Below, one piece after another: positions 7,803 through 36,010 of a stretch of DNA of 52,959 nt (its first letter is position 1; the number at the start of each line of letters is the position of its first letter). Origin of the DNA: Candidatus Heimdallarchaeota archaeon (GTDB lineage Archaea; Asgardarchaeota; Heimdallarchaeia; Heimdallarchaeales; JAJRWK01); NCBI GenBank assembly GCA_027061945.1, contig JAMOVR010000095.1, positions 1-52,959 on the forward strand. The letters are read 5' to 3'. The translations under genes were made by a program, and so were the position numbers. The notes beneath the pieces were generated by a model, which was not told the origin of the DNA, did no database searches, and saw only the letters and a list, made by a program, of their open reading frames with translations.

Positions 7803-8711
7803 TTAGTCATCCAGAAATGATAATAATTCTGCGTCAATGTTAAGTTTAGGTCTTTGATTAGATATTTCTTCATCTAACTTACGAATTGCCTCGTATAAAT
7901 CTTCTAAATATTTTAAAATGGTTCTATCTGCTTCTTTTAATTTGTTAACTGTGTTTTCAATTCTCTCAATTTTGTTCTCTAAAACGGAAACTCTAGTAAC
8001 TAAATTATTTAATTTAGTTATTTCCTTTGAAAATTCTTCACTTTTACCATCTTTTTTTGAGGACAGAAGTGATCTAGACTTAAGACCATGCGTTTGAAGT
8101 CTTTCTGGCTCACGATCTTCATAATAATACCTTCTAGCTTTTTCATCTTTTTTAAGAACCTCTTCTCGAATATCTTCTGGAAGATAAGATAAAGCAGTAA
8201 GATAAAAAAGCTTTTCAATGTTTTCACCAGTTAAAGCCGAAGTTTCAACATAATACGTTGGGATCTTGTATTTTTCCTCTACATAACGAGCAAATTCTTC
8301 TCCTTCATTAGTAGCTACCACTCTAAATTCTTCTAGATCTATTTTATTTGCAATAATCGCTACTGTTTTTATTGTTTGTTGTGCAGCATCAAAACATTCT
8401 GATATCCAGTACTCTAATTTTTCGAATGATAATCTGTCTGTTGTATCATAAACAAGAAGAACTGCATTGGCCCCTTTATAAAATAAAGGTCTCATTGTTT
8501 TAAACATGACATGTCCAGCTAAGTCCCATATCTGGAGATGAACTACATAATCTCCTAAGGTAATTGATTTAGATGAAAAATCGGAACCTAAGGTTGCGAA
8601 ATAAGATTCTTTAAATCCTTTTCCCATGTATCTTTGTCTAATACTTGTTTTTCCAACCAACCTTTCCCCTACTAAAATCACTTTTATTTGAATACCTTGA
8701 CTTTCAATCAC
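7803..8711 (-). CDS. Rab/Ras-like small GTPase with C-terminal coiled-coil extension
   Basis: P-loop GERLVGKTS, WDLAGH, NKIDL, ETSAL; long C-terminal coiled coil. Confidence 0.93.
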   Translation of the reverse strand: MIESQGIQIKVILVGERLVGKTSIRQRYMGKGFKESYFATLGSDFSSKSITLGDYVVHLQIWDLAGHVMFKTMRPLFYKGANAVLLVYDTTDRLSFEKLEYWISECFDAAQQTIKTVAIIANKIDLEEFRVVATNEGEEFARYVEEKYKIPTYYVETSALTGENIEKLFYLTALSYLPEDIREEVLKKDEKARRYYYEDREPERLQTHGLKSRSLLSSKKDGKSEEFSKEITKLNNLVTRVSVLENKIERIENTVNKLKEADRTILKYLEDLYEAIRKLDEEISNQRPKLNIDAELLSFLDD

Positions 8712-15062: not shown

Positions 15063-18035
15063 GTGATTGAAATGGCTGATAAAAATATTTTTGAAAGAGT
15101 AGATAATGTTACTTGGAAAATTCCTCGGACCTATAAAAAAACTATGAGGACAGATGCGATAATCTTTGGGACTGAAAAAATTATCGAACAAATGGATGAT
15201 TATGTAATTAATCAGATTACTAACGTTGCAAGTTTACCTGGTATCGTTGGTAACGCCATGGCCATGCCAGATGCACATATGGGTTATGGGTTTCCTATTG
15301 GAGGAGTTGCTGCTTTTGACTTAGAAAATGGAGTTATATCTCCAGGCGGAATTGGTTTTGATATCAATTGTTTAGCGGCAGATACAAAGATTTTACTCGA
15401 ACATGGATATACTAAAACCATTGCCCAGTTACAAGAAGAATGGAAAGATGAAAAAGTAATAGTAATGGATTTTAATAAGAAAACCCCCATAGAAGCAAAA
15501 ATGATTTATTTCTTTTCTAAAAAACCAGACACTCCTGTATTTAAAATACGAACTGTAAGTGGTAATCAAATAATTGTCACTGCAGATCATCCGATTAAAA
15601 CTCCAAAAGGAATGATAAATGCCGAAGAACTAAAAGAAAATGACAAAATCGCAGTATACCCATTCAAAGGAGTTCCTTACGAAGAACCCGAAAGTACAAC
15701 AATTCTCGCCGAAGAAGATCTTAAGCTATTAAATTTAAGCCAAGATAATTTGAAAGAAATCATTTCTGAACTAAAAAAGAAAGAATTACTTCCATTAAGA
15801 CTTAATTCCCCTAAATTACCTTATCTTATCAAAATCTTTGGCTATCTACTTGAGAGTGGAAACATTGTGAATATAACTCATAAGAAAGGAGTTGTATGGT
15901 TTTATGGGCAAAAGGAAGATCTCTTAGACATCCGTAAGGATCTTTTAAGGCTTGGTTGGTATTCTTCCGATATTGTTATGAAAACAAAAGATATCCCAAT
16001 TGAAACAGCATATGGTGAAGAAATAATTCAAAAAACAGAATATCAAATCAAAATAGATTCTCAAAGTCTTGTTGCATTATTAACAGCATTGGGATTTCCT
16101 TTAGGTAATAAGTCTGCACAAGACTATGAAATTCCTTATTGGATTAATTTGGCACCTTTATGGATGAAGAGACTTTTTTTAGCATCATATTTTGGGGCAA
16201 AACTAAGTACACCTCGAACAATTTTAAATAATGGATATGAGTTTTACACGCCAACCATAAAATTAATCAAAAAATCACAAAATTCAAAATCTGGCTATTC
16301 CTTCTTAAATCAAATTAAAAACTTACTTAACGAATTTGGAATAAAAACCGATGAGATCTCAGAAAATATTATTGTTTCCCCGGAAAATAACGCTTCTGAA
16401 GAAATTATTCTAAAATTGACAATTACACCAGATACTGAAAATCTAATTAATTTATATTCTAAAATTGGTTTTGAATATAGCAGGAAAAAACAGCTTTTGG
16501 GATTAATGGCAACACATTACCTTAAAATTAAACAATTAGCAATGTTTTCTGAGCATGCAAATGTTCAGACAAAAAACATTGAAAACAAAAAACTAATTGA
16601 GCTCTTAAATCAAAACCAAAACGCTATTGAAGCACATACTACGATAAGCACACATTCTTCCCAAGAAAAAAAAGGAGCATATTCTACTTCTGATCTTTTA
16701 ACATTTGAACAATTCATAGAAATAAATGCAATATATGAAAATGGAGCAATTGGTTGGGTTTGGGATGAAATAAAGAACATTGAAGAGTTAAAAAATTATG
16801 ATGATCTGGTTTATGACTTTACTGTTGATCATGAAGATCATAATTTTATTGCTAATAATATTGTAGTTTCAAACTGTGGTATGAGACTAATCCGAACAAA
16901 TCTAACAATTGATGAGGTTAGGCCGAAAATAAAAGAATTAGTCTCAACATTGTTTGACATGATTCCAGTAGGTGCTGGTAGAAAAGGCTTTGTCCCATTA
17001 AACAGAGCAGAGTTTGAAGAAGTAGTTACTATGGGCGTAGATTGGACTGTTGAAAAGGGCTTTGCCTGGAAAAATGACAAAGATCACACTGAAGCAAGAG
17101 GGCGTTTAGAAGATGCTGATCCTGAAGCAATTAGCGCTAGGGCATTCAAAAGGGGAAAAGATCAGTTAGGTACCCTTGGCAGTGGAAATCATTATTTAGA
17201 GATTCAATATGTCCATCCAGGGGATATTCATGATCCCGAAACTGCTAAAGCATTTGGAATAGAACAGGAAAATCAAGTTACTGTAATGGTTCATTGTGGA
17301 TCTCGTGGATTTGGACATCAAATAGGTACCGATTATCTTAAACTATTTCTTGATATCATGCCAAAATATGGTATTAAAGTTTTAGACCGTGAGCTCGCAT
17401 GTGCCCCATTTAATTCACCAGAAGGACAGAGATATTGGAAAGCAATGAGTGCAGCCGCAAACATGGCTTGGGCCAATAGACAAGTAATAACCTACCAATT
17501 AAGAAAAGCATTTGAGAAAGTGTTCAAAACTCCTGCTGAAGACCTCGGTATGGAATTGGTGTATGATGTGGCCCATAACATAGCAAAAATTGAAGAATAT
17601 GAGATAAATGGTAAAAGGCGTAAATTAATAGTCCACAGGAAAGGGGCCACTAGATCTTTTGGCCCTGGACAACCAGAACTGCCCGTTGAATACAGAAAAT
17701 ATGGGCAACCAGTAATTATCGGGGGTTCCATGGAAACAGGTTCTTATCTTTTAGTAGGCACGGAAACAGCAATGAGGAAAACATTCGGTAGTACTGCACA
17801 TGGCTCAGGTAGAACAATGAGTAGGAGAAAAGCAAAACGTAGTGTTAGAGGTGATGAACTTCAAAAACAAATGGAGAAAAAAGGAATCTACGTCAAAGCT
17901 GCATCAATGAGTGGTTTAGCAGAAGAAGCAGGTTTTGCTTACAAAAATATTGATGAAGTTATTCACTCAGTTCACTTAGCAGGAATATCTAAACCAGTAG
18001 TTAAGTTAAGACCTATTGGAAACATAAAGGGATAA
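15063..18035 (+). CDS. rtcB: RtcB tRNA ligase precursor with intein
   Basis: Exteins: MAMPDAHMGYGFPIGGVAAFD..GGIGFDIN//CGMRLIRTNL; GTLGSGNHYLEIQ, MVHCGSRGFGHQ, HRKGATRSFGPG, GSMETGSYLLVG. Confidence 0.97.
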   Translation: MIEMADKNIFERVDNVTWKIPRTYKKTMRTDAIIFGTEKIIEQMDDYVINQITNVASLPGIVGNAMAMPDAHMGYGFPIGGVAAFDLENGVISPGGIGFDINCLAADTKILLEHGYTKTIAQLQEEWKDEKVIVMDFNKKTPIEAKMIYFFSKKPDTPVFKIRTVSGNQIIVTADHPIKTPKGMINAEELKENDKIAVYPFKGVPYEEPESTTILAEEDLKLLNLSQDNLKEIISELKKKELLPLRLNSPKLPYLIKIFGYLLESGNIVNITHKKGVVWFYGQKEDLLDIRKDLLRLGWYSSDIVMKTKDIPIETAYGEEIIQKTEYQIKIDSQSLVALLTALGFPLGNKSAQDYEIPYWINLAPLWMKRLFLASYFGAKLSTPRTILNNGYEFYTPTIKLIKKSQNSKSGYSFLNQIKNLLNEFGIKTDEISENIIVSPENNASEEIILKLTITPDTENLINLYSKIGFEYSRKKQLLGLMATHYLKIKQLAMFSEHANVQTKNIENKKLIELLNQNQNAIEAHTTISTHSSQEKKGAYSTSDLLTFEQFIEINAIYENGAIGWVWDEIKNIEELKNYDDLVYDFTVDHEDHNFIANNIVVSNCGMRLIRTNLTIDEVRPKIKELVSTLFDMIPVGAGRKGFVPLNRAEFEEVVTMGVDWTVEKGFAWKNDKDHTEARGRLEDADPEAISARAFKRGKDQLGTLGSGNHYLEIQYVHPGDIHDPETAKAFGIEQENQVTVMVHCGSRGFGHQIGTDYLKLFLDIMPKYGIKVLDRELACAPFNSPEGQRYWKAMSAAANMAWANRQVITYQLRKAFEKVFKTPAEDLGMELVYDVAHNIAKIEEYEINGKRRKLIVHRKGATRSFGPGQPELPVEYRKYGQPVIIGGSMETGSYLLVGTETAMRKTFGSTAHGSGRTMSRRKAKRSVRGDELQKQMEKKGIYVKAASMSGLAEEAGFAYKNIDEVIHSVHLAGISKPVVKLRPIGNIKG
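15369..16874 (+). other. Intein in RtcB (~502 aa) with degenerate LAGLIDADG domain
   Basis: Begins CLAADTKILLEHGY after GFDIN; block B TADHPIKT; ends DHNFIANNIVVSN before extein Cys; LAGLIDADG-like IFGYLLESGN and LFLASYFGAKLS. Confidence 0.95.
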
Positions 18036-27369: not shown

Positions 27370-28263
27370 TTATTTTAATAGCTTCTCTATCTTGTTCATA
27401 CATAATTCAAAAATTCTGTTTACAGTTTCAGAACTATTAGTGTTTTCAATTATAGGAACACCCATCACCTCTGCAGATTCAACTAAATAATCATGGATTT
27501 TCCGGATATTTTGAAAATATTCTTTTGTATTTTTTGTTATTCTTTTCTCTTCTAAAATTCTGTTTAAATGTTCTTCAGAATCTTCTAAAAACAAAGTAAC
27601 GAGTAAAATATTTGGGTTGTCTCTCATTTCCTTATCGATTATTTGTGGGACTAAATGTTCTCCTCTTAGAATAAAACTAGTTTTTTCTAACCATGCACGG
27701 TTTATCATTGCTTGTATTCCTGCTTTCAAAATTTTTACTTGCTCTTCAAATCCAATAATTACTTTATCAAATAAAGCGGAGTGGATTGGTCTTAGGGCTT
27801 TCCAAGCTAAATATGAGGGATAATAAAGCTCTGGAGCTAAGCTTTCCGAAATTACTTTTTGAGAGATGTTTAACAGCAATGAAGTCTCAAAATTACGGTA
27901 TATGTCTAGTCTAAAAGCGATTTCTCGAGCGATAAGTCCTTTTCCTACACCCGGAGCACCACTAATTAGTATTATTAATGGTTGCTGAGATTCTGACCAT
28001 TTCTCTAAAAGAACATATTTTTGGGCAATCTCGGAGCCAAAATTTTTTTCAAGTTGACCTTTAACTAGGTCGATGAATTCTTCTTCCTCTATTTCTGAAA
28101 CTTTTTTTCTTCTTAAATAACGATAGATATTATTTGCTAAGTTATGCCCGTTATTAAGAGGTATTCCTAATCTAGTAAGCCTATGGGCTAAAATACCCCT
28201 AGAAAAAGGTGTTTTATATTGTTTACCTAAAATAAAAATATTATTAGAGCTCTCCATAGGCAT
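27370..28263 (-). CDS. 2-phosphoglycerate kinase-like P-loop kinase, paralogue 1
   Basis: ATP-cone-like N-terminus; LIILISGAPGVGKGLIAREIAFRL; resembles neighbouring ORF. Confidence 0.65.
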   Translation of the reverse strand: MPMESSNNIFILGKQYKTPFSRGILAHRLTRLGIPLNNGHNLANNIYRYLRRKKVSEIEEEEFIDLVKGQLEKNFGSEIAQKYVLLEKWSESQQPLIILISGAPGVGKGLIAREIAFRLDIYRNFETSLLLNISQKVISESLAPELYYPSYLAWKALRPIHSALFDKVIIGFEEQVKILKAGIQAMINRAWLEKTSFILRGEHLVPQIIDKEMRDNPNILLVTLFLEDSEEHLNRILEEKRITKNTKEYFQNIRKIHDYLVESAEVMGVPIIENTNSSETVNRIFELCMNKIEKLLK

Positions 28264-28416
28264 TACTACACCAAAATTGTTCTTTAATAAAGATCAATCC
28301 CTTACTTCTTTATTTTTTTCCCTAAAAATAAAGAAGTTAAAAATAAAAGACTAAGAAGAAATATAACTCTAAAAAACAAAAAACAACTGTAGAACATTCA
28401 CAATCGGTGGCTGTAA

Positions 28417-29355
28417 TTGACATCTCCCTCTAAAACAAAAAAAACAGATACAAATACAAATAGTAAAAAAAACACACCTTTAATCGTTACCAAAAGCGGG
28501 AAAATACCTTTTTCAACAGGATATTTAGCAGAATCGTTATTAGTTTTGGGTATAACTTTAAAAGAAGCATATAAATATGCAGAAAAAATTAGTCGAAAAT
28601 TAAAGACTCTTGACCAACCGGAAATTAAAAGTTCAACACTTATGGAACTAATAATCAGAGAGTTTCAAGAATCTAAGCACCCTTATGCAATAAGGGCTGA
28701 ATTCCTAAGAAATGATTTAAAGTTGCTAAGACCATTGGTAGTGCTTCTCTCAGGAGTAACTGGAATTGGTAAAAGCACAATTTCTCTTCTTATTAGTCAA
28801 AGGTTTAAAATAGAAAGCTTGCTTGGTTCTGACTTTGTCCGAGAAGTATTTCGTTCGGCAATTAATCCTAGACTAATGCCTACTATTCATTTTAGTAGTT
28901 ATGAGGTCGGTGATCATCTAGGGCTTTCCATTTCAAGAAGACTTAATCGTCATATAATTGGTTTTGAAGAGCAAGCAAGAAAAGTAATGGTTGGTATCGA
29001 AGCTACTATTGACTATGTAATTTCTCAAAGAGATACAATTTTAATCGAAGGTGTTCATGGCATTCCTTATCTCTTAAAGGAAGAGTATGTTTCTTCTGAA
29101 CATGTTGTTCCTATTCTACTTACTTTAGAAGACGAAGAACTTCATTATAATCGACTGAAAAAAAGAGAACGCTTGAATCCAAACAGAAAAGGAACTCATG
29201 TAAAATATTTTGATCGAATACGTTCTATTCAAGCTTATCTTATCGAAAGATGCAAAGATGAGGGCTTTCCAGTAGTTGATCTGAAAGACGAATATGATGC
29301 TGTAACTCAAATCACTGAGGAGATTTGGAAAAGAAAACTCTCTAGTTTGAGTTAA
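28417..29355 (+). CDS. 2-phosphoglycerate kinase-like P-loop kinase, paralogue 2
   Basis: VVLLSGVTGIGKSTISLLISQRF..LGSDFVREVFRSAINP..LHYNRLKKRERLNPNRKGTHVKYFDRIRSIQAYLIERC. Confidence 0.78.
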   Translation: MTSPSKTKKTDTNTNSKKNTPLIVTKSGKIPFSTGYLAESLLVLGITLKEAYKYAEKISRKLKTLDQPEIKSSTLMELIIREFQESKHPYAIRAEFLRNDLKLLRPLVVLLSGVTGIGKSTISLLISQRFKIESLLGSDFVREVFRSAINPRLMPTIHFSSYEVGDHLGLSISRRLNRHIIGFEEQARKVMVGIEATIDYVISQRDTILIEGVHGIPYLLKEEYVSSEHVVPILLTLEDEELHYNRLKKRERLNPNRKGTHVKYFDRIRSIQAYLIERCKDEGFPVVDLKDEYDAVTQITEEIWKRKLSSLS

Positions 29356-32481: not shown

Positions 32482-34155
32482 GTGAAGGATAATTCTAATA
32501 AAAACATATCAAATAATCCAAACATTATTTACGAAAGGGCACTTCGTTCTGACCCCGAATATCTTAAGATGGCGGAAAAACTATGGGGTGAGATAATACC
32601 GGATTTAAGTTCTTTGAAGTCCCGATTTAAGAAAGGCTTAATACATAAAAGAAAACATGAAACTATTAAAGATCTTGAGGTACTTAAAAAAAGTTTAATT
32701 GAATATCATGAAAAGCTAGGAATTCTCACAGATAAGACAATAGAGAATATTGAAAAAATCGTGAATGGTAGTATTCTAAGTGGTCATCAACCCATTATTT
32801 TTGGTGGTCCTGGATTAATTTCAAACAAGATTGCAACTCTTCAGTACATTCAATCTTTTTTAGAGAAACATAATGTTAAATTAGCCCCTATATTCATGAT
32901 TGCAGATTATGATGGTTTACATAAAGAATTAGTTAGAATGTATTTTACTACGCCAAGATCGTCGAAACCACAAATATTAGATATAAGTAAAAATCTAGAT
33001 TATCCAGAACAAACAGCGTTTCATCGAATAAAAAGCCCTTCTGTAAAATGGCTCATAGACACAATTAGATCTGTAAAACTGGTTAATAGAGAATTTTCTT
33101 CTAAACTAAGTAACGAACAAAAAGCCTTGTTCTTAGAAAACTTGGATCATATATTAAACATGTTAATGATCTCTTATACCTCAACATCTACTCTTAAGGA
33201 CTGGTTTGTCAAATTTTGGGGCACAATCACGAATTTGATTAACGACTGGGGAATCATTTATTTTCCTGTAAAAGATAAAAAAATATCTCAGGTATTAACT
33301 AAATATTATGCCCCTTTTTTACTGAAAAATGAAGATTATGTATCATCTTTTAACGAAAAGTATTATTTTCTAAAAAGGAAAGGTTTCAAACCAACATTAA
33401 AAACAAGAGATAAACAGATTGCACAATTTTTTGTAGAATGCCCAAATGATGGAGTTAGAATGCATCCATTAATTTCGGGTATTGACCACGAAACATACAT
33501 TATCAAAACAAAATGCCCTCATTGCAAAAATGAATATATCTTCAAGTTTGAAAACGGAAATTTTGACAAGAAAATCTCACTACTTTTAAACCCAAAAGTT
33601 GATTCTTCCTCTGGCATTGTTCAAGAACTATTAAATACACAAATAAGGATCAGCGGTCCAGGAGAAATCGCTTATTTTGCAATGGTACGTAGTGGCATTT
33701 TAGCAACGGGTATAAGGACACCAATATATATTAAATATAAACGTGTTTTCTATAATACACCTTGGATTGAACAATTAGGAAAATTCCTTAATGAAAAGGG
33801 CATTCCATCTCTTCACTCACAAGAATTTTTCAAACTACTCTCTAAGTTGGCTAAAGTGAAAAGAAAAAGGCAGTTTGAACAGATCCCCATTATTGAGCAA
33901 GAGGTTTCTGATTATATTAAACATATATATAACAAATTACTGGAGTATTCTGGAGACCCTGATGTAGATACTTATTTATCATGGCAATTTGGGCGATTTT
34001 CAAAACAAAAATTTGGACAAGAAGTTTCTTGGGTATGGTTTGAATTAGGAAAAGTCACTGGACTTAATTACTATTTTAATGCCTTTAATCGTGTATTCTC
34101 GGAGAATTATTCTTTCGGAGGTATGTATTATCTTGGCACTACCTTGAAAATATGA
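32482..34155 (+). CDS. BshC-like cysteine-adding enzyme
   Basis: SGHQPIIFGGPGLISNKIATLQYI..LAPIFMIADYDGLHKEL; ISGPGEIAYFAMVRSGILATGIRTPIYIKYKR. Confidence 0.8.
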   Translation: MKDNSNKNISNNPNIIYERALRSDPEYLKMAEKLWGEIIPDLSSLKSRFKKGLIHKRKHETIKDLEVLKKSLIEYHEKLGILTDKTIENIEKIVNGSILSGHQPIIFGGPGLISNKIATLQYIQSFLEKHNVKLAPIFMIADYDGLHKELVRMYFTTPRSSKPQILDISKNLDYPEQTAFHRIKSPSVKWLIDTIRSVKLVNREFSSKLSNEQKALFLENLDHILNMLMISYTSTSTLKDWFVKFWGTITNLINDWGIIYFPVKDKKISQVLTKYYAPFLLKNEDYVSSFNEKYYFLKRKGFKPTLKTRDKQIAQFFVECPNDGVRMHPLISGIDHETYIIKTKCPHCKNEYIFKFENGNFDKKISLLLNPKVDSSSGIVQELLNTQIRISGPGEIAYFAMVRSGILATGIRTPIYIKYKRVFYNTPWIEQLGKFLNEKGIPSLHSQEFFKLLSKLAKVKRKRQFEQIPIIEQEVSDYIKHIYNKLLEYSGDPDVDTYLSWQFGRFSKQKFGQEVSWVWFELGKVTGLNYYFNAFNRVFSENYSFGGMYYLGTTLKI

Positions 34156-34170
34156 AAAAAGAAAAAATGT

Positions 34171-35280
34171 TTAGAGAACTTCCTCGTAAAGCATTTCATA
34201 TCGAGGAATAATGACTTCTGGAGAAAAATGGGTTAATACTCTTTTTCTACCGTTTTTACCTAATTTTCTTCTTTTTTTCTTATCTTCTGCAAGTATTAAC
34301 ATATAATCTAATGCCTCATTAAAATTGTTTAATTCAAAGAGAAAACCTTCTTTTTCATGTCTACATACTTCTGGAATCCCACCTATGTTTGAAGCCCATA
34401 CCGCAGTTGAAGTACTCATCGCTTCAGCAACTACTAACCCAAAGCTTTCTTTCTTAGATGGTACTGCTACAAAATCTGTAAGTCCGAAAATACGGTACAA
34501 GTCCTTTCTTATCCCCATAAAACTAATTTTATCCAGAATGCCTCTTTTTTTGGCGATTGTATATACTTTTCTTTTCAATGGTCCTTCGCCTACTAATTGA
34601 AGCTTCATATCAGGTATTTCTTTAACTGCCTCTGCAAACACTTCGGTTAAAAAAACAGGGTTTTTTACCTCTCTAAAATTACTCGCATGAGTAATTATAA
34701 CTTCATTTTCATTCCTGTTTTTTCTTTCCTTTTCCAAAGGTCTAAATAAATCGGTATCTACAAAATTGTAGATTACTTTAGGCATATTCTCCAAATTAAA
34801 AACTTCAACGCTTTTATTTGCTAAAAATTTTGATACCGCAGTGATTTCATCGAAATCATGTAACATAGTAGACATTACTTTATTAAGATCTTTATCAGCA
34901 CCGATTGTATGAACATCTGAACCGTGCAGTGTTAATATTACAGGAACTTTAACTAATCTTTTTAATAAAAACCCGGCTTCTACATGGTGAACACCATAAT
35001 GAAAATGTATTAAATCTGGGGAAAGCTTTTCTGTTAACTCTCTCAATCTATTAGCCAATAACATAGCATAAGGTGGGCCTACGTCGATAAATAACGGATA
35101 ATTCTTCAAAGGCACCGTGATTATTTTTACTTTACCAGGATATCCCCTTTTAAATAGCAATGGAACATCATAAGAAATAACGTAGACTTCATGTCCATTC
35201 TCTGCTAATTGTACCGCTAAATTTGAAGCTAGAAGGCCCGACCCTCCAAGCAATGGAAAACTAACAATGAATATTCGCAT
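34171..35280 (-). CDS. BshA-like GT4 glycosyltransferase (N-acetyl-glucosaminyl-malate synthase family)
   Basis: MRIFIVSFPLLGGSGLLASNLAVQLAENGHEVYVIS..DLIHFHYGVHHVEAG..LTLHGSDVHTIGADKDL..VAVPSKKESFGLVVAEAMS. Confidence 0.85.
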   Translation of the reverse strand: MRIFIVSFPLLGGSGLLASNLAVQLAENGHEVYVISYDVPLLFKRGYPGKVKIITVPLKNYPLFIDVGPPYAMLLANRLRELTEKLSPDLIHFHYGVHHVEAGFLLKRLVKVPVILTLHGSDVHTIGADKDLNKVMSTMLHDFDEITAVSKFLANKSVEVFNLENMPKVIYNFVDTDLFRPLEKERKNRNENEVIITHASNFREVKNPVFLTEVFAEAVKEIPDMKLQLVGEGPLKRKVYTIAKKRGILDKISFMGIRKDLYRIFGLTDFVAVPSKKESFGLVVAEAMSTSTAVWASNIGGIPEVCRHEKEGFLFELNNFNEALDYMLILAEDKKKRRKLGKNGRKRVLTHFSPEVIIPRYEMLYEEVL

Positions 35281-35338
35281 TGTGCTAATTTTATAACTAA
35301 GATAAACTCTAAAATTCTTCTGTTTGAAATAAACAATA

Positions 35339-36010
35339 ATGACATATGAGATCATGACTATTTTTGCTCATCCCGACGATGAAACTTTTTCTACAGGGGG
35401 GATATTAGCTAAGCACTCTAAAAAAGGAGCAAAAACAGTTTCTGTATGCTTAACGTACCAAGAGGAGAGAATAGATGAATTTGAAAAAGCAACAAAAATT
35501 CTTGGATCAAAAGGTATTATGTTATCTTATAATTCGTTAAGCTGGAATAATTTTAATGAAATAGAAAAAGAATTAATTCAATTATTAATAAAATTTAAGC
35601 CAAAGGCAGTGATTACACATATACCTTACGATTATCATCAAGAACATCGGCTAACACATAAAATAGTTTTAGAGGCCATAGAATGGGCTGCACACACTAC
35701 GCAATTTGGAGAATCTGCGCATTTAGTTGAAAAGCTTTTCTTAGCGGAAACAACGGTTCTTATACCGTTTCCGCAAGTAATTGTAGATATAAGTGACGTG
35801 TTTGAAATAAAACAACAAGCAATAAATGTTTATCAGAGTCAGTTGGGTAAAGGAGGACCTGGCTTCTATTCTAAATTCCAAACAAAGAGAGCTGAATTAA
35901 GAGGAGTTCAAGCAGGCGTAAAATATGCTGAAGCTTACGAAATAGAGTTAATCCCTTTAATAGGGGCTTTTAAACCAAGAAAATATTTTGACTATCTCCC
36001 ATTTGATTAA
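35339..36010 (+). CDS. PIG-L/BshB-like deacetylase
   Basis: IFAHPDDETFSTGGILAKHSKKGAKTVSVCLT; HIPYDYHQEHRLTHKI. Confidence 0.88.
   Translation: MTYEIMTIFAHPDDETFSTGGILAKHSKKGAKTVSVCLTYQEERIDEFEKATKILGSKGIMLSYNSLSWNNFNEIEKELIQLLIKFKPKAVITHIPYDYHQEHRLTHKIVLEAIEWAAHTTQFGESAHLVEKLFLAETTVLIPFPQVIVDISDVFEIKQQAINVYQSQLGKGGPGFYSKFQTKRAELRGVQAGVKYAEAYEIELIPLIGAFKPRKYFDYLPFD

Follow-up and report, generated by a model that had tools for sequence, protein, structure and literature searches.

A bacillithiol-type gene cluster with an insert-bearing BshC in Heimdallarchaeia and other Asgard archaea

Three intact neighboring genes in the window, the whole 52,959-nucleotide stretch of DNA analysed here, encode homologues for all three steps of bacillithiol synthesis side by side in one genome, their activities being predicted only. 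The first is a bshC-like gene at 32482-34155 on the plus strand (557 amino acids, GTG start), whose product is a predicted cysteine-adding enzyme of the archaeal ribbon-insert type. It is followed by bshA at 34171-35280 on the minus strand, a predicted GlcNAc-malate synthase of 369 amino acids when read from Met26 of the longest open reading frame, and by a bshB-like gene at 35339-36010 on the plus strand (223 amino acids), a predicted PIG-L-family GlcNAc-malate deacetylase. The open reading frames, which span 32482-36010 with zero internal stops, have the coordinates and strands reported in an earlier interpretation made from the letters alone (the sequence-only reading). We place the conserved bshA start at Met26 (35280) because the family matches begin there, which leaves 58 bp (35281-35338) to the bshB ATG at 35339 and agrees with the spacing reported earlier for this divergent pair. 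The gap between the two start codons is rich in A and T, contains a single TATA-like run, and is probably a shared regulatory region, with a putative promoter serving both genes.

The window is contig C95 of its source genome and carries genes for Tsr3, Cdc6/Orc, archaeal CCA-adding enzyme domain(s), a Ras-like GTPase, and an intein-bearing RtcB. In addition, a second genome of the same genus, G002 (MAG Dive96_bin2.176, contig JAJRWK010000063.1), repeats the window's gene order around the cluster (QOR-Tsr3-BshC-BshA-BshB-HAD-544aa-Cdc6). Genomes in the same order are recorded as Heimdallarchaeota or Kariarchaeota, and family f9 of the phylum is recorded as Thorarchaeota. Together, the archaeal neighbor genes, the synteny with G002, and the same-order records indicate that the host is an Asgard archaeon of the Heimdallarchaeia, which bears out the archaeal host that had been proposed. 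The source genome (2.9 Mb) is assembled in 377 contigs and is 87% complete, a state that gives some footing to the idea that the triad is contaminating bacterial DNA or was recently transferred into a single assembly. Contamination is ruled out by synteny and trees, and the idea as a whole is extremely improbable, given that Tsr3, Cdc6/Orc, the archaeal CCA-enzyme domains, and the Ras-like GTPase gene share the contig with the triad, that G002 keeps the gene order, and that the window BshC and BshA nest in supported Heimdallarchaeia clades. The phylogeny that had been suggested as a check on horizontal transfer thus found no closer bacterial relative among the sequences sampled, and a search of viral contigs with BshA returned zero relatives. 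Elsewhere in the window, the RtcB RNA ligase gene with its intein-splicing domain lies at 15063-18035 (plus strand), and the Ras-family small GTPase gene at 7803-8711 (minus strand) encodes 302 amino acids, longer than the domain itself. Two adjoining divergent genes at 27370-29355 (297 and 312 amino acids) have weak P-loop/ATP-cone matches and resemble 2-phosphoglycerate-kinase-type proteins.

The window BshA scores 304.1 bits against TIGR03999, above the curated NCBI equivalog cut-off of 273.7, and phmmer aligns it to the BshA structures 2jjm (E 7e-65) and 5d00 (E 3e-59). Consistently, it retains the columns that distinguish BshA from other GT4 enzymes and groups with other BshA in one clade of the tree. 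The mycothiol pathway (MshA, MshB, and MshC) follows a similar logic, with a GT4 enzyme, a PIG-L deacetylase, and a cysteine-adding enzyme that resembles class I aminoacyl-tRNA synthetases. The window BshA, however, reaches 71.5 bits against the MshA model TIGR03449, far below the equivalog cut-off of 462.5, and the third enzyme of the cluster is BshC-like. One feature sets the archaeal protein apart. The window BshA contains the motif HGSDxH (TLHGSDVHTIG, residues 117-127, at 34900-34932 on the minus strand), and reading of the sequences finds HGSDxH in every Asgard BshA covered over the motif region, whereas bacterial BshA has HGTDx[TS] in all 15 genomes read. One otherwise near-fixed position beside HG(S/T)D therefore differs between Asgard and bacterial BshA, while most other positions fixed in the bacterial enzymes are retained. 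Because the change sits beside the near-invariant TxHG(S/T)D of the N-terminal domain, it favors a model in which the same three-step chemistry uses an acceptor other than malate, yielding a new Cys-GlcN-X thiol and not bacillithiol. We regard this model as unlikely, as BshA passes its equivalog cut-off with most of the bacterially fixed positions intact, and return to it below with the evidence from BshC.

The window BshB has a PIG-L domain (PF02585, 70.5 bits against a cut-off of 28.2), and its top NCBIfam match is BshB1, although the score against TIGR04001 (79 bits) is below the BshB1 equivalog cut-off of 182.5. Residues H11, D13, and D14 of the HPDD motif, together with H103, are invariant, and the PIG-L active-site residues are kept. 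The BshB model (pLDDT 89.9) has B. cereus BC1534 (2ixd) as its best Foldseek match and also matches the BshB structures 6p2t and 6ull, with B. subtilis BshB matching nearly as well as BC1534. Archaeal diacetylchitobiose deacetylases match about as well as the BshB structures. In family f4, a relative of the window BshB with approximately 45-51% identity is located elsewhere in the genome.

The window BshC matches the Pfam Rossmann domain PF10079 at 62.5 bits (cut-off 27) and reaches 70 bits against TIGR03998, below the equivalog cut-off of 265.8. Its AlphaFold model (pLDDT 91.5, pTM 0.92) has B. subtilis BshC (4wbd) as the top Foldseek match (E 8e-20, TM 0.67/0.69), far above all others. The next match is class I LysRS (E 1e-6), which is expected because the BshC fold is related to class I aminoacyl-tRNA synthetases. 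Across 51 Asgard and bacterial BshC sequences, 16 residues are invariant. Relative to bacterial BshC, the window protein has no Pfam hit for the C-terminal coiled-coil domain of the bacterial enzyme and contains a Cys-bearing ribbon insert (about residues 314-358, at 33421-33555 on the plus strand), which bears C320, D323, C345, and C348 and is modeled with short predicted strands. C320 and C345 are kept in 41 of 41 aligned Asgard-type BshC, and the f4 members displayed lack the fourth Cys; from these residues, the insert likely binds metal in most members. It is missing from bacterial BshC and from a second Asgard BshC type. In the tree, Asgard-type BshC forms one clade split from bacterial BshC at 100 (SH-aLRT), and this separate, insert-bearing clade is a further point in favor of a non-malate acceptor.

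A check for BshC orthologues in Asgard genomes, as had been recommended, found BshC in 102 of 196 phylum genomes, with BshA over its cut-off in 90 of the 196. The C-A-B cluster recurs across two or more classes, in Heimdallarchaeia, Thorarchaeota, and family f16, and all three genes could be examined together in about 36 distinct genomes (45 loci, as some genomes are represented twice). Gene order is C-A-B in all but one of the clustered genomes, and bshA and bshB are divergent in all but two; bshC is on the strand of bshA in Thorarchaeota and faces bshA in Heimdallarchaeia. This distribution bears on whether the enzymes have instead been borrowed for another job, such as modification of a surface glycan or lipid sugar, in which case no diffusible thiol would be made. 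GT4 and PIG-L are broad families, archaeal PIG-L deacetylases act on diacetylchitobiose, and families f5 and f7 have BshC without BshA, all of which would suit such a role. We nevertheless judge it quite improbable, because the exact bacillithiol set stands side by side and in order in so many genomes and because the triad is co-distributed with DinB_2 proteins.

Asgard-type BshC is found at L039, L041, L042, and L047 (f5) and at L046 and L165 (f7) in genomes without BshA over the cut-off, and the f5 BshC adjoins a conserved gene (a class I/II aminotransferase in L041). These families suggest that Asgard-type BshC may sometimes work on something other than the product of BshA. At L043-L045, L048, and L169 (f8 and f23), BshB adjoins BshC with no BshA beside them. 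In L045 (f8), BshB passes the BshB1 cut-off at 205.6 bits, and about 2 kb separate the pair from a DinB_2 gene. The BshB-BshC pairs of f8 and f23 can also be read in favor of a non-malate acceptor. It is tempting to speculate, though on balance doubtful, that in the Asgard lineage of the pathway BshC binds metal, the acceptor site of BshA is altered, and the product is a sugar-cysteine thiol other than bacillithiol, with the orphan BshC of f5 and f7 and the BshB-BshC pairs of f8 and f23 cysteinylating other amino-sugars. If true, Asgard archaea, as relatives of eukaryotes, would possess a family of novel thiols.

A second, bacterial-style operon type encodes the same pathway in archaea. In f6, another Heimdallarchaeia family (L156-L158, L160), and in G082 of a different family (L161), bshC, bshB, and bshA lie in that order on the same strand, and, unlike in the window, BshC is free of the insert. 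The f6 BshA carries HGSDxH. In G043, the one f6 genome scored, BshA (413 bits), BshB1 (228 bits), and BshC (380 bits) are all over the curated cut-offs, and by NCBI's own criteria the G043 sequences amount to a complete predicted bacillithiol pathway in an archaeon. That the f6 BshA shares the altered motif, yet belongs to a triad passing bacterial cut-offs, argues against the motif denoting a different acceptor. The origin of this operon was considered in trees built on few bacterial sequences, most of them from Bacillota. The BshC tree nests the f6 protein among the bacteria sampled, with low support, and the AU test does not reject a topology that unites all Asgard BshC (p 0.48). In the BshA tree, all sampled bacteria form one clade apart from f6 BshA (98/89). 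For a recent bacterial origin of the f6 operon, the BshC tree therefore leans toward bacteria and the BshA tree separates it from them.

In addition to the biosynthetic genes, we considered proteins that might use the thiol. All eight STL bacillithiol transferases of B. subtilis belong to the DinB_2 superfamily (PMC5815605). By family, DinB_2 (PF12867) is present in 7 of the 7 that have BshA and in 4 of the 16 that lack it (p 0.001). By genome, it is present in 61 of the 67 counted as having BshC and in 5 of the 30 counted as lacking it. These counts are uncorrected for relatedness, and 5 of 9 f6 genomes were scored BshC-positive from BshA alone. The 87% complete window genome gave no DinB_2 match, and both same-genus genomes have two each. 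The bacilliredoxins BrxA/B and BrxC (PF06491, PF11009) were found in none of 97 genomes. A true YpdA was not found in the window genome, where only weak YpdA-like flavoproteins were present (64.5 bits against a cut-off of 339.9). Given that neither the known bacilliredoxins nor a true YpdA was found, reduction of the thiol's disulfide would need other proteins. For gamma-Glu-Cys and glutathione synthesis, the gamma-Glu-Cys ligase (GCS2, PF04107) had no match in the window genome, the searched genomes of its order, or families f1-f4 and f16. Only one of the 97 genomes, G063 (f12), has a near full-length match to this ligase (98 bits); in it BshC is absent and DinB_2 is present.

Our analysis supports, at a probability of roughly 0.7, a model in which the window genes specify an archaeal form of the bacillithiol pathway, with bacillithiol or a near analogue as its product. 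In this pathway, BshA would transfer GlcNAc from UDP-GlcNAc onto L-malate or a closely related hydroxy-acid, BshB would remove the acetyl group via its metal-dependent PIG-L active site, and BshC would couple cysteine to the freed amine. The resulting Cys-GlcN-malate (bacillithiol), or its analogue, would be the main small thiol of the cell. What the computations show is homology, a matching fold, retention of shared residues, conserved gene clustering, and a joint distribution with a family to which thiol-transferases belong; we infer each catalytic step, the malate acceptor, a metal in the BshC insert, and how the product is used. The pathway has three enzyme families in common with its bacterial counterpart (bshA, bshB1, and bshC; Bacillota and others), which it resembles in a BshA over the cut-off, a BshC fold close to 4wbd, shared invariant residues, and the PIG-L metal motif. 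It differs in its C-A-B arrangement with a divergent bshB, in having no known bacilliredoxin, and in its BshA motif and sub-cut-off BshB and BshC. The sequence-only reading had proposed that this archaeon makes bacillithiol or a related thiol. With an archaeal host, a complete syntenic triad, and the shared residues kept, the triad is best read as making a sugar-cysteine thiol, and that part of the proposal is supported; that the product is bacillithiol itself is less certain, given the BshB and BshC scores and the change in the BshA motif.

The idea of bacillithiol in Asgard archaea is not new. According to the available text of a review by Rawat and Maupin-Furlow from 2020, bacillithiol synthesis was proposed in Asgard archaea from 39 InterPro hits each for BshA and BshC in archaea, mostly Asgard (PMC7278568). 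The earlier description, which placed the pathway mainly in Bacillota, Deinococcota, and Bacteroidota/Chlorobi, thus gives only part of the picture, and Asgard homologues of BshA and BshC belong in it as well. To the review, as far as its available text extends, we add the clustering, BshB, the distinct BshC clade, the BshA motif, and the co-distribution with DinB_2. More recently, a 2025 RefSeq survey with Chlorobaculum queries found the full pathway in no archaeon (PMC12719100). The Asgard clusters contradict this survey as regards metagenome-derived Asgard genomes. In the literature searched, we found neither a report of bacillithiol detected in an archaeon nor a description of the conserved cluster, the separate insert-bearing BshC clade, the BshA motif, the second operon type passing all cut-offs (one genome scored), or the DinB_2 link.

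Asgard archaea with the cluster probably make bacillithiol or a close analogue. For the identity of the small thiol in these archaea, the clusters supply concrete genes and testable predictions. Eukaryotes use glutathione. If our reading is confirmed, lineages close to eukaryotes would rely on a bacillithiol-type thiol for their redox chemistry, which would bear on the timing of the switch to glutathione.
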